IMG/VR virus record: IMGVR_UViG_3300048003_000310
Span: 1 to 31,543 of that record
Length of the DNA stretch: 31,543 nucleotides
Direction: 5' to 3' (one strand)
Source: a virus
Shown: positions 19,442 to 23,392 of the stretch, one piece after another
How the letters are laid out: each line of letters starts with the position of its first letter
Numbering within the stretch: the stretch's first letter is position 1
Notes under the pieces: generated by a model
Database searches by the model: none
Told to the model about the DNA's origin: nothing
The model's input: only the letters and a program-made list of their open reading frames with translations
Translations under genes and position numbers: made by a program

Positions 19442-20302
19442 GTTTATTGGGGAAGAGCAGAATCCAACTGACAACTTCGTAATCTTTCCTCCTTTCTTCA
19501 GATAGTTTTGGATTTGGTCCTTGAAGTCCGATGACTCTACGGAAGAATCGGTTGGTTCTAAATCGATGTAGTGCCGTTGTTGTAGACGAGTCCAGGGACT
19601 GTTGAAGAAATCTTGTGAATCCGGCTCAAAGATGATGTCTGACTCTGGAGTATTAAACTTCTGTCGGTTCATCTTGATCTTCTGGAGATCCTTGGAGCAT
19701 CGATCACAGATCTTTGCTTTAGAACTTTTCGATAGAACCCGTTGCTTACATCGACTACATGGCCGATTGGGATTCTCTCGATAACGTATCCGGTCTCTTT
19801 CATTACGAAATTTTTGCTTACAGATTTTTGAACAATAGATCTGGTTGGAGTTCTTCTGAATAAATAGACGGGAACAACACTGGCAATTTACTTTCTCTCT
19901 GTTCAACCACTTCTCGCTTTCAATTACTCTCTCGTTCCCTCTTTGACAGATCGTGCTACAGAAGCGTTTGTTTGGATGAACATCCTTGAACTTCCGGTTA
20001 CAGTGCCGATAGGCACAGGTCTTCTCTGGTCTGTGCTTCAGTTTTTCCCAACGTTCCTCTCGTTTTTTCTGTAGATACTGGTCATAGAACTTTTTGCTAC
20101 CGATCTTCTGACAGTCTTTAGAGCAGTAGACGTTGATGTCAGACATCGGGGTAAATGTTTGGCTACAGATCGCACAGTTTCTCGGTTTTAACTTCCTAGT
20201 CTGTTCCCGTTTATACATTTTATAGGTACAGGGATCTCCACAGTACTTCTGGTTATTTGCAGTAACCGACATCTCCTTCTGGCATAGATTGCACTGTTTC
20301 AT
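19427..20302 (-). CDS. Five-zinc-knuckle protein with GGKIT tail
   Basis: This 291-aa protein has five tandem Cys4 knuckles with constant geometry: C4/C7/C21/C25, C43/C46/C60/C64, C96/C101/C115/C119, C140/C143/C157/C161 and C182/C185/C199/C202. Each keeps 13 residues between the two Cys pairs. The linkers are long, basic and helical. After an acidic stretch the tail has 'IQNYLKKGGKITKL' (264-277), a motif I know from small phage proteins. It is coupled to the exonuclease stop by ATGA. Basic linkers and knuckles suggest nucleic-acid or protein binding, perhaps with the adjacent recombination proteins. I do not recognise a named family. Confidence 0.72.
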   Translation of the reverse strand: MKQCNLCQKEMSVTANNQKYCGDPCTYKMYKREQTRKLKPRNCAICSQTFTPMSDINVYCSKDCQKIGSKKFYDQYLQKKREERWEKLKHRPEKTCAYRHCNRKFKDVHPNKRFCSTICQRGNERVIESEKWLNREKVNCQCCSRLFIQKNSNQIYCSKICKQKFRNERDRIRYRENPNRPCSRCKQRVLSKSSKAKICDRCSKDLQKIKMNRQKFNTPESDIIFEPDSQDFFNSPWTRLQQRHYIDLEPTDSSVESSDFKDQIQNYLKKGGKITKLSVGFCSSPINMELS

Positions 20303-20313
20303 GACAACTCCAT
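20297..20313 (-). repeat. Repeated gene junction, copy 2
   Basis: This is the same 17 bp as at 19425-19441, here joining the HTH-exonuclease gene to the zinc-knuckle gene. Confidence 0.8.
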
Positions 20314-21234
20314 AACGTCCTCATGATAACCCTGGCTATAGATCTCACCGGAGAGATACTGTTTGTATAGTTCGACTGCCTGATTAATCTTGAACTCTGC
20401 GTTGTGCATCAGTTCATCGGATAGTCTGTACAAGGCCACGTTGTACGGTGCGGTGTTTTCGACTACTAAAAACAAGAACTCCGGATAGTGACCGGAAATA
20501 GATTGATAGGCTCTTCGATACCAGTTGGCTTGAATGTCATACTGATACCGTGTGACTGCCTTTTTAAATCCGTATGGAGAAGCATCCTGAGCACTCTTCA
20601 GATCTACTACGAGGTGCTGTCCATCGTCACTGTAGTCGAGTCTCGCTTTTGCTCGGATACCGTTCTCTTCCCAGGTGATCACCTGTTCTACTTCTGCATT
20701 CGGAATAATCCGCCAGAACTCTGGATGTCGAAAAACAGACTCGGTCATCAGCACTACGTCTTCGTAATCTTCCTTCTTCAAAACGGTCCTCTTTTCTTGT
20801 GCTACAAACTGATCGTATTCCTCCCGTCCTGCTTTCGTCCTTCTGTCCACATTTGGCGCAACCACGTACTTGTCACCGAAACTCTTTCCGGCTAGTCGCA
20901 GTTCTATTGAATCGTGGATCGCTGTTCCCTTTGCCATCGCAGGAGACTGTTGCATCGGAGAGGACAGGTAGTGATTAAGACTTTTGTTTAGACGTTTGAT
21001 CAATGAGGCATTCAGTCCATCGAGTTCACAATATTCTTCAAACGACATTCGGGAGGACCGAGGTTTGATCGGAGTGTTCCGGAGGATTTCTCCGGTTGGG
21101 ATTAAATGAGGGGATCGTTCATGGGTTTGAATGGACTTGATCTGTCCTGATTGAATCATCCTCCGTACTTGATCGACACTGACATTTAGAGCCTGAGCAG
21201 CCTGACTCGTATTTAATAGGTTGGTATCTTGCAT
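20299..21234 (-). CDS. HTH domain fused to PD-(D/E)XK exonuclease
   Basis: Start is the ATG at 21232-21234, with GGAG upstream. The 311-aa product has an N-terminal excisionase/MerR-type HTH (about 6-50: 'LLNTSQAAQALNVSVDQVRR' then 'IQSGQIKSIQTHERS'). A nuclease of the DUF3799/RecE-like type follows: 'MAKGTAIHDSIE' (about 100-111), 'IRAKARLDYSDD' (193-204), the catalytic 'LVVDLKSAQDAS' (208-219), and 'YQYDIQANWYRRAY'. It should degrade one strand to feed the ERF annealing protein. First in the leftward operon, divergent from the repressor across a shared operator, so the HTH could bind its own control region. Confidence 0.78.
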   Translation of the reverse strand: MQDTNLLNTSQAAQALNVSVDQVRRMIQSGQIKSIQTHERSPHLIPTGEILRNTPIKPRSSRMSFEEYCELDGLNASLIKRLNKSLNHYLSSPMQQSPAMAKGTAIHDSIELRLAGKSFGDKYVVAPNVDRRTKAGREEYDQFVAQEKRTVLKKEDYEDVVLMTESVFRHPEFWRIIPNAEVEQVITWEENGIRAKARLDYSDDGQHLVVDLKSAQDASPYGFKKAVTRYQYDIQANWYRRAYQSISGHYPEFLFLVVENTAPYNVALYRLSDELMHNAEFKINQAVELYKQYLSGEIYSQGYHEDVMELS

Positions 21235-21270
21235 CACACTCCATGTTTTAACCGTTGACTGTTCACTGTT

Positions 21271-21298
21271 TGATCACGGTGATCAGGTTATCTCATAA
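21271..21298 (+). promoter_or_regulatory. Repressor/exonuclease divergent operator and promoter
   Basis: TGATCAC-G-GTGATCA (21271-21285) is a perfect 15-bp palindrome between the divergent repressor and exonuclease genes. A rightward promoter can be drawn over it: TTGATC (21270-21275), 17 bp, TCATAA (21293-21298). This would make the repressor autoregulated. The leftward promoter for the exonuclease operon must overlap or adjoin, but I cannot place it confidently. Confidence 0.6.
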
Positions 21299-21322
21299 CC
21301 AAATGAAGGATGCAACAATAAA

Positions 21323-21949
21323 ATGATCAGTCCACTTGAAAAATTAAGACAGTGGCAACAACAGGGAGGTTATAGCCAGCAACAGATTGCCGATTCCATT
21401 AGATGGGACAGGTCGAAAGTCAGTCGAGTACTACAAGGAAAGCAGCATGACAGTCTGTTAAACCTGGGAGTCGAGATCGCTAAACACTATGGATTGGAAG
21501 AAGGATGGTTGCTTGATCGAAGTGATCAGGAAGTGATCAGAGACGATAACTATCGTTTGATCCGAAAATTTGATACAGAAGCGTCAGGAGGAGCAGGAAC
21601 TTTGACTACGGAAGAAAACGGAGAGCAGATCCAAGTGATTACCGAGTGGCTACCGAAGTTGCCAGATCAGAGCCTAGCCTTTATCACGGTAGTCGGTGAC
21701 AGTATGAGTCCATTGATGGGATCGGGAGATACGATCCTGGTTCATATGAACAGTGGCTTCCTCGGTGATGGTGTCTACGTTCTGAGACTCTGGGAGTCTC
21801 TCCATGTCAAACGAGTTCAACGGGTAGCCCAGGACGAATACCGGATCGTTTCCGATAACCCGATCTACAAAGACCTGACGATTACGGCTGATGATAGTGA
21901 TGGGTTCCAAATTGTTGGAAGAGTTGTTCGATTAGTAAAGGCGCTATGA
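21323..21949 (+). CDS. CI/LexA-like S24 self-cleaving repressor
   Basis: This 208-aa protein has an N-terminal HTH (about 17-40, 'YSQQQIADSIRWDRSKVSRV') and a C-terminal S24 peptidase-like domain. The Ala91-Gly92 cleavage site is in 'EASGGAGTL', the nucleophile is S127 in 'VGDSMSPLMGSGD', and the general base is K163 in 'LHVKRVQR'. The spacing matches LexA/CI. It should keep the lytic operons silent and be cleaved upon RecA activation, so the prophage is SOS-inducible (inference from family). A cluster of TGATC(A/G) boxes lies inside the gene at 21514-21539. Its stop overlaps the integrase start as ATGA. Confidence 0.9.
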   Translation: MISPLEKLRQWQQQGGYSQQQIADSIRWDRSKVSRVLQGKQHDSLLNLGVEIAKHYGLEEGWLLDRSDQEVIRDDNYRLIRKFDTEASGGAGTLTTEENGEQIQVITEWLPKLPDQSLAFITVVGDSMSPLMGSGDTILVHMNSGFLGDGVYVLRLWESLHVKRVQRVAQDEYRIVSDNPIYKDLTITADDSDGFQIVGRVVRLVKAL

Positions 21950-22896
21950 TTGATCAATATTTGGACTACCTGCGGACCTATCGTTCTCAAAGGACTGTTG
22001 ATACCTATCGACCACAGTTAGCCCGGTGGCAAGCGTTCTGGAGATCCGATTCCATCAACTACGAGACTTTCAAGAACTACGTGGATCACCTCCGTTCCGA
22101 AGGACTATCCGATGGTTCGATCAATTCCCATCTGCGGTCTCTCAAAGCTTATCTGAACTGGTGTCATAAATACCTCGGTCATCCGAAGTATCATGTACCA
22201 ATGTTGAAAGTGAATAGAAAGATCCCCCAGGTCTGGACTAGTCATCAGTTAGAGATCATGGAAACGATTCTCAATCACCGAGCACAGAGATCCAGAAGAT
22301 ACCAGATTCTTCGGAGAACCCATTACATGCTGCGGTATACCGGAATGAGAGCAGGAGAGGTCTTTCATTTAAACTGGATGGATATCGGATCTGGAATCCG
22401 TATCGTGGCAAAGGACGATTGGACAACGAAGAATAAACAGGATTCGATTCTACCGATTCATCCAAAGCTACTGGAGTTTTTACAGATCGAGAAACATGAG
22501 GGGGAAACTAATTACCTAGATCATCATTTCAAGGAACTGAGTCACTTAACGTATTCGATGAGAAAGTTTCAGAAATCCATTGACTTAGATGGACCGAAAC
22601 CACTCCATGGCTATAGAGCCTCTGTCGCTACCGAACTATTATCGGGAAAGATGAACCCAATACACGTGCAACATCTGCTACGACATGAACGGATTTCGAC
22701 TACAGAACTCTATCTGAATACGACCCATTTGCCGCTACAAGAATTGGTGAATTCGTTAGGAATTAACAGAGAGGATACAGAGGATGTTACAAATGATACG
22801 TGGTGGCCAGAGCGGGAATCGAACCTGCGACACACGGATTTTCAGTCGTTGGAAGAAAAGATAGATAAACTGTTACGAATAGTACAGAAAGACTAG
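21946..22896 (+). CDS. int: Tyrosine integrase with attP in its 3' end
   Basis: This 316-aa recombinase has an N-terminal SAM-like core-binding domain (about 1-90) and a catalytic domain with R135 ('YTGMRAGEVF'), a Lys near 162-164, H221-x-x-R224 ('LHGYRAS'), H247 ('LLRHERIST') and nucleophile Y256 ('ELYLNTT'). Residues 286-301 (WWPERESNLRHTDFQS) are encoded by the tRNA-Phe-like attP core, and the last 15 residues lie beyond it. Recombination at attP would therefore swap the C-terminal codons. It is cotranscribed with the repressor (ATGA overlap). The stop overlaps the convergent endolysin stop as CTAG, with no terminator between. Confidence 0.92.
   Translation: MIDQYLDYLRTYRSQRTVDTYRPQLARWQAFWRSDSINYETFKNYVDHLRSEGLSDGSINSHLRSLKAYLNWCHKYLGHPKYHVPMLKVNRKIPQVWTSHQLEIMETILNHRAQRSRRYQILRRTHYMLRYTGMRAGEVFHLNWMDIGSGIRIVAKDDWTTKNKQDSILPIHPKLLEFLQIEKHEGETNYLDHHFKELSHLTYSMRKFQKSIDLDGPKPLHGYRASVATELLSGKMNPIHVQHLLRHERISTTELYLNTTHLPLQELVNSLGINREDTEDVTNDTWWPERESNLRHTDFQSLEEKIDKLLRIVQKD
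22801..22847 (-). other. attP: attP core: 3' half of tRNA-Phe(GAA)
   Basis: On the minus strand these 47 nt read as a tRNA from position 30 to the CCA end: anticodon loop CTGAAAA (GAA, Phe), TCCGT, GTGTC, T-arm with TTCGATT loop, acceptor TCTGGCC, discriminator A and CCA. The 5' half is absent, and pairing fails beyond the last two anticodon-stem bases, so this is not a working tRNA but the identity block by which the phage rebuilds a host tRNA on integration. The T stem has one A-C mismatch, so the block may differ from the host at a base. Confidence 0.85.
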
Positions 22897-23276
22897 TAAG
22901 ACCAGATCCAAGGACGGGGAGATTTGGCAGTATTGTTTAAATCGTCACAGTGGAGGAATCTATTGGTTCTCGGTCCTTTCATTTTAAATCCGAGTCCGGT
23001 CATTCCGTACTTCAGACAAAGTTTCATTAACTCGTAGGCTTCCTGACCAAAAATCTGAATGTCTACTGCTCTTCCTGTTGTATGTGGACCTGTACTTCCT
23101 GTGGATGAAATCTCTGAGTTATATCGAGGGCAACGATACGCTGAAGTAATGATCATCGGCTGCTGAAATTCATCACGAATCAACTGTAGTTTTTCCATAA
23201 AAGCTACGTTCATCTGGTTTCCACCACAGCAACTACAACTAAGTTCTCGGTGTTTAAAGTTCCGGGTCTCAATCAT
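22893..23276 (-). CDS. Peptidase M15-type endolysin
   Basis: This 127-aa protein is a D,D-carboxypeptidase/endopeptidase of the M15 (VanY/M15_3) type: 'MIITSAYRCPRYN' (41-53), 'GPHTTGRAVDI' (63-73) with zinc ligands H65 and D72, and 'RFLHCDD' (106-112) with H109. It cuts peptidoglycan cross-bridges for host lysis. No signal peptide is present, so it needs the holin-like proteins encoded just upstream. It starts ATG overlapping the small membrane gene as ATGA. A CSCC cluster near residue 14 is a small oddity. Confidence 0.88.
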   Translation of the reverse strand: MIETRNFKHRELSCSCCGGNQMNVAFMEKLQLIRDEFQQPMIITSAYRCPRYNSEISSTGSTGPHTTGRAVDIQIFGQEAYELMKLCLKYGMTGLGFKMKGPRTNRFLHCDDLNNTAKSPRPWIWSY

Positions 23277-23392
23277 TTCTTCATCCGTTTAAACATTTTG
23301 ACTCCGAAGACGAGTCCTGCTGGTGCGCCAAGGGCAACGAGACCCATTTCCAGGAATCCGGTATCGAGTGCTAGATTGAATAGTTCTTCCAT
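23273..23392 (-). CDS. Small one-helix membrane protein of lysis cassette
   Basis: This 39-aa product (MEELFNLALDTGFLEMGLVA, then a hydrophobic 'LGAPAGLVFGV' and a KMFKRMKK end) has one predicted membrane segment and a basic tail. AAGGAG lies upstream of its ATG, which overlaps the previous stop as TAATG; its own stop overlaps the endolysin start. Size and place suggest a holin or anti-holin helper. Confidence 0.72.
   Translation of the reverse strand: MEELFNLALDTGFLEMGLVALGAPAGLVFGVKMFKRMKK

Follow-up and report, generated by a model that had tools for sequence, protein, structure and literature searches.

A tRNA-Phe-derived attachment site within the integrase gene of a marine phage family predicts an altered integrase C terminus in the prophage

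A tRNA-Phe half lies within the integrase reading frame

In a family of uncultured marine phages, a putative attP site lies inside the integrase gene, and integration would very probably alter the C terminus of the integrase. The window analyzed here is the whole stretch of 31,543 nucleotides that makes up IMG/VR virus record IMGVR_UViG_3300048003_000310. Its int gene contains a 47-nt block, TGGTGGCCAGAGCGGGAATCGAACCTGCGACACACGGATTTTCAGTC (window positions 22801-22847), that begins at codon 286, ends two bases into codon 301, and is followed by 15 codons (302-316) and a TAG stop. Read antisense, the block consists of the anticodon arm, variable loop, T arm, acceptor strand, and CCA of tRNA-Phe(GAA). 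The first-pass annotation had placed a 47-nt tRNA-Phe(GAA) 3' half at integrase codons 286-301, 15 codons before the stop, and both the coordinates and an exact tRNA match bore this out. On sequence grounds, an exact 47-nt match to tRNA-Phe cannot be the product of chance. ARAGORN found no complete tRNA in the window, as expected if the block is a half, and an Rfam scan gave no tRNA match for the half-gene and a single sub-threshold chance match. The features discussed below are as follows.

21323-21949, + strand: S24-type (CI-like) repressor gene, the stop of which overlaps the int start (ATGA, 21946-21949)
21946-22896, + strand: int, tyrosine integrase of 316 aa; Pfam Phage_integrase (PF00589), E=1e-10
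22732-22758, + strand: usual C-terminal helix after the catalytic tyrosine, codons 263-271, placed from homologue ends, structures, and the AlphaFold model
22759-22800, + strand: variable linker, codons 272-285, with no protein-level constraint; counterpart of the spacer between the int stop and att in L021, a relative described below
22801-22847, - strand: putative attP core block, antisense tRNA-Phe(GAA) 3' part from the anticodon arm to CCA, placed from the exact match and conservation
22839-22845, no strand assigned: likely strand-exchange (overlap) region TTTTCAG, the complement of the anticodon loop CTGAAAA, proposed from anticodon-type attP sites (PMC4383910)
22849-22893, + strand: phage-specific tail LEEKIDKLLRIVQKD, codons 302-316, a predicted amphipathic helix that would be replaced on integration
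22893-23276, - strand: convergent M15-type peptidase (endolysin-like) gene, the stop of which overlaps that of int

The block and its reading frame are conserved across the family

We compared 13 full-length int genes, that of the window and those of 12 close relatives. No position varied across a 46-nt run (22803-22848), the longest in the gene, compared with 23 nt for the second longest; when variable sites were permuted within codon positions, a run of 46 nt had a probability of about 5e-5. Codons 287-301 showed no synonymous change in these 13 genes, while about 45% of codons elsewhere varied solely synonymously. Among viral contigs, 22 contained an exact copy of 45 nt of the block, 20 of them from the int family and 2 from another family (L016/L018). 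The other family contigs, which fall into two clades with about 62% protein identity, all (20/20) had int before the block and the phage tail after it in the same frame. Two of the contigs at about 62% protein identity, L087/L088, had an identical block in an unchanged frame, even with 9 codons fewer in the linker. A family contig of 37,108 nt had a 99-nt end overlap running through int and is a complete circular genome in the attP form. The phage-record collection yielded only relatives at about 25% identity. The placement of the putative attP within int is conserved across this previously undescribed marine phage family.

That the block is kept as DNA argues for its role as an attP core, belonging to a temperate phage whose integration would take place around the anticodon loop of a tRNA-Phe(GAA) gene in the host. 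The block carries a 3' tDNA fragment that reaches the anticodon loop and would restore the gene, as in class A (3' fragment) of Islander, and an anticodon-centered class of attP sites has been described (PMC4383910). We place the likely crossover near the anticodon loop because the int block and a tRNA-Phe 5'-half block found in phage contigs L054/L055 share just 13 nt there. This 13-nt stretch, which includes 22839-22845, is common to the 3'-half blocks of the int family and of L016/L018 and to the 5'-half block of L054/L055. We also looked for arm-type repeats around attP and found nothing convincing.

An empty host tRNA-Phe gene and the predicted prophage integrase

The first-pass annotation had called for a search of bacterial genomes for tRNA-Phe genes matching the block. 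We searched 84,980 species genomes for exact copies of 43 nt of the block and found a single match, in contig CAJXNF010000111.1 of a metagenome-assembled genome (MAG) titled "uncultured proteobacterium." The matching gene is an intact tRNA-Phe(GAA) gene with an encoded CCA (L019:7631-7706). The reverse complement of the block equals tRNA-Phe positions 30-76 over all 47 nt, and identity stops exactly at 22847. No integrase lay beside this gene within the examined stretch, and we therefore read the gene as an unoccupied attB. A sequence match does not in itself prove host range, and we regard the MAG as a candidate host. We also sought the integrase in all 52 available genomes of the MAG's phylum group, which we guess to be SAR324. 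The best match was L021, a broken copy with 42% identity, and this may be a second, weak link between the phage and the MAG lineage. A candidate host lineage is thereby put forward for an otherwise hostless phage family.

Joining int computationally to the MAG tRNA gene gave a protein of 311 aa with the end TELYLNTTHLPLQELVNSLGINREDTEDVTNDTWWPERESNLRHTDFQS-VALPTELSGR*. The prophage integrase would then end in TDFQS-VALPTELSGR* (311 aa) where the phage integrase ends in TDFQS-LEEKIDKLLRIVQKD* (316 aa), the last 15 residues having been exchanged for 10 encoded by host DNA. This prediction uses the sole exactly matching host tRNA-Phe gene that we found. Elsewhere in the MAG group, intact tRNA-Phe genes translate in this frame as xALPTELSG, after which stops occur at differing points in the flank, so the exact end of the prophage integrase would depend on the host. 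The proposal of the first-pass annotation that the codons after about 301 are replaced on integration is supported by the DNA-level constraint, by the frame in every family contig, and by the matching empty tRNA-Phe gene. It had envisaged a prophage integrase that was longer or altered; the computed fusion is altered, but it is shorter, not longer. The peptide it had foreseen, VLYQLSY, belongs to another frame.

Integration at tRNA-Phe is thus a prediction. Prophages carrying this integrase, for which the annotation had proposed a search, did not turn up: the IMG/VR viral contigs and the 52 genomes of the MAG's phylum group yielded no integrated copy and neither an attL nor an attR. The translation across the junction that it had proposed comes from the computed fusion and not from an observed attL or attR. 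A search of viral contigs for the host tRNA sequence in its joined form matched just one other phage family, which carries a 5' half. The missing prophage copy would fit a different reading, in which the block does not serve for attachment and is a relic or a captured piece of tRNA that does something else. We consider this highly improbable, given the strict in-frame conservation of the DNA inside int and given two further phage families with halves of the same tRNA-Phe that meet at the anticodon loop.

The catalytic domain ends before attP

Int has the features of a tyrosine recombinase: it matches PF00589, its catalytic residues R135, K162, H221, R224, H247, and Y256 show no or almost no variation, and Foldseek matched it to XerA, Tn1549 Int, lambda Int, and Cre. 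Its structure matches also included the Brujita integrase. It belongs with the simple (arm-less) tyrosine integrases, lacking an arm-binding domain; the SAM-like core-binding domain starts at residue 2, and the sequence upstream is open in frame for only 15 codons. Integrases with about 30% identity terminate around residue 271, and solved Xer and integrase structures can be aligned to about the same residue. In an AlphaFold model built on a broad alignment (mean pLDDT, 78.9), the core was predicted with confidence; residues 263-270 formed a helix, which a disordered region separated from a second, low-confidence helix spanning 296-312 (pLDDT, about 30 to 50). Since the catalytic domain ends before attP, integration would alter just an added tail, and since the catalytic residues and the C-terminal helix are encoded upstream of attP, the 311-aa prophage form is probably active.

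The archaeal SSV-type integrases also have attP inside int, and integration splits their gene into inactive pieces (PMC8371274). By analogy, the attP within int could mean that this integrase inactivates itself upon integration, as the archaeal suicidal integrases do. We think this very unlikely. Unlike in SSV, the whole catalytic domain lies on one side here, and the crossover would fall after Y256, the other catalytic residues, and the usual C-terminal helix.

The linker and the phage-specific tail

The broken relative L021 suggests how the overlap may have arisen. Its int stop lies right after the equivalent of codon 271, and an antisense tRNA-Arg remnant starts about 44 nt past that stop, compared with 42 nt from codon 271 to attP in the window. 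The L021 genome also has an intact tRNA-Arg gene with the same sequence bar a few changes. In more distant relatives, an att fragment follows the int stop, mostly in the opposite orientation. Since the spacing in L021 matches that between codon 271 and attP, the simplest reading is that attP sits in its ordinary place and that the int stop would have been lost.

Within the close clade, dN/dS was 0.095 for residues 1-271, about 1.4 for the linker (272-285), and 0.195 for the tail (302-316). Parsimony counts over a tree that included every member gave 17 synonymous and 24 nonsynonymous changes in the tail. The probability of so few nonsynonymous changes under neutrality was 0.001 to 0.06 for transition weights of 1 to 5; it hinges on the assumed transition rate, reaching 0.058 to 0.061 at a kappa of 5, and overall the synonymous excess corresponds to a P of about 0.01 to 0.06. 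In the same analysis the linker was compatible with neutrality (P = 0.33 to 0.65). The tail reads SLEEKIDKLLRIVQ in one clade and SLQSKMDELLSIVK in the other, with the hydrophobic positions retained. Its identity between the clades is 46%, below the 61% of the integrase body; its frame, length class, and hydrophobic pattern are preserved across about 38% protein divergence. Between-clade contrasts of codon positions in the tail were not significant, and the hydrophobic moment of the L087 tail was no higher than that of shuffled sequences. These comparisons offer modest evidence of protein-level selection on the tail that would be replaced.

The overlap could instead be harmless read-through, in which the stop was lost, the tail does nothing by itself, and the phage and prophage integrases behave alike. 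The neutrally evolving linker, the homologues that function with ends near residue 271, the complete catalytic domain upstream of attP, and the weak tail statistics all fit this reading; a tail dN/dS of about 0.2, together with a frame, length class, and hydrophobic pattern kept over about 38% protein divergence, argues against it. We judge harmless read-through to fall a little short of an even chance, and to be at least as likely as a tail-based bias against excision.

The neighboring genes and a possible bias toward the integrated state

The ATGA overlap between the repressor stop and the int start is kept in relatives and suggests that the two genes are probably cotranscribed; the prophage form of the integrase is probably produced in the lysogen. 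On the other side, int and the M15 gene share a CTAG (22893-22896) that holds both stops. As a consequence, attP lies wholly within coding sequence, with no intergenic DNA on its far side, and the M15 gene would not be cut by integration. A scan of 21150-23350 found no promoter or terminator. In a lysogen, the repressor-int transcript (21323-22896) would cross the host tRNA-Phe gene antisense; no terminator-like site was found in 21150-23350.

The account that we favor, and consider probable taken as a whole, combines a crossover at an attP within int, a tail swap, a selected helix, and a bias toward staying integrated. The int stop would have been lost just upstream of attP, and read-through would have added a short amphipathic helix that selection later kept. 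In the infecting phage, this helix probably aids contact between integrases or between the integrase and a partner. By the geometry of recombination, integration would rebuild the tRNA gene and leave at attL an int gene fused in frame to the antisense tRNA 5' half and its upstream flank. Expressed from the repressor-int operon, the prophage form of the integrase would keep catalysis and miss the helix, and loss of the helix would bias an arm-less integrase toward staying integrated and against excision. That the tail produces such a directional bias is possible, although we hold this part only tentatively. It is unlikely, in our estimate, that the helix beyond attP is a built-in directionality element, which the circular phage has and for which integration swaps in VALPTELSGR, the product thereby setting the direction. 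Few direction controls are known for arm-less integrases; if true, exchange of the tail through the reaction itself would add a simple one.

Upstream of the repressor gene, a RecE-like DUF3799 exonuclease (20299-21237, - strand) has an N-terminal HTH_17 domain just under the curated cutoff. HTH_17 domains are typical of excisionases, and the protein may be an excisionase fused to an exonuclease. By eye, it resembles a protein encoded at L120:2629-3567 (- strand).

Relation to known systems

The principle of an attP within int is already known from phage Mx8 and the SSV integrases, and from the int gene of the Escherichia coli prophage DLP12, with the BPs repressor as an analogue. Mx8 IntP and its prophage form were reportedly described by Tojo et al. 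in 1996 and Magrini et al. in 1999. The DLP12 int gene, said by Lindsey et al. in 1989 to overlap argU, resembles our case in that an integrase gene from a bacterial prophage overlaps the tRNA gene it targets. In the Myxococcus phage Mx8, attP lies within int, and integration creates a new 3' end and a prophage integrase that is active but altered (PMC6070905). The window is of this Mx8 type, with attP in the integrase coding sequence and a new 3' end computed for the integrated form. Three things set it apart from Mx8: a crossover in a postcatalytic linker, a junction of antisense tRNA-Phe sequence, and an exchanged segment that is a tail of 15 residues. Because the Mx8 and SSV integrases cross attP, the coding filter of Islander is not applied to integrases (PMC4383910).

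The two forms of the integrase could be a functional switch, as in Mx8, differing in activity, specificity, or stability and giving direction without a dedicated excisionase. The precedent itself (PMC6070905) and a survey that found Xis associated only with arm-domain integrases (PMC8138268) are consistent with this idea, as are the arm-less nature of Int, its overlap with the repressor gene, and the constraint on the tail. However, no ssrA-like tag is apparent on either form, and an HTH_17 domain on the RecE-like exonuclease could be an excisionase that makes a switch needless. We regard such a switch as conceivable but doubtful.

In the mycobacteriophages BPs and Brujita, attP lies in the repressor gene and integration removes an ssrA-like tag (PMC4557955). 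They resemble the window in having attP in a lysogeny gene of a repressor-integrase pair and a C terminus that changes on integration, and the Brujita integrase is also arm-less. In the window, by contrast, attP is in int, the repressor ends at 21949, and an ssrA-like tag is not apparent, which sets it apart from the BPs type. Marine T7-like cyanophages use a partial tRNA as attP, located downstream of int, and integrate without stable lysogeny (PMC8776855). They share with the window phage a marine origin and a partial-tRNA attP, although theirs is outside int, and by analogy their behavior is a caution for the window phage too. New here are the family of phages, its linker of antisense tRNA sequence, a candidate host site, and the conservation of the tail. 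The window adds an unrelated-looking case from uncultured marine phages, with a putative junction pinned to the anticodon loop and conserved over wide divergence.

tRNA-Phe fragments in other phages

In another phage family, represented by L054/L055 (the same as L068 and L069), a 42-nt stretch from the 5' half of the tRNA-Phe described above lies in sense orientation about 90 nt downstream of a different integrase gene. This fragment is flanked by repeated TGTACAAC-like motifs. Attachment sites with 5' fragments are uncommon, accounting for 159 of 3919 Islander islands (PMC4383910). The identical 47-nt block also occurs in a further phage family, at L016:5039-5085 (G053:19881-19927) and in L018. 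The sole Phage_integrase match in the L016 family (G053:31014-31514) is about 11 kb away, an unusual distance between attP and int. Finally, in the L056 genome, a pair of partial tRNA-Phe 3' halves stands in tandem with a 73-nt separation (G002:C22:15297-15398), and a third copy lies on a second contig, G002:C48. These three tRNA-Phe fragments suggest repeated integration at tRNA-Phe in that lineage.
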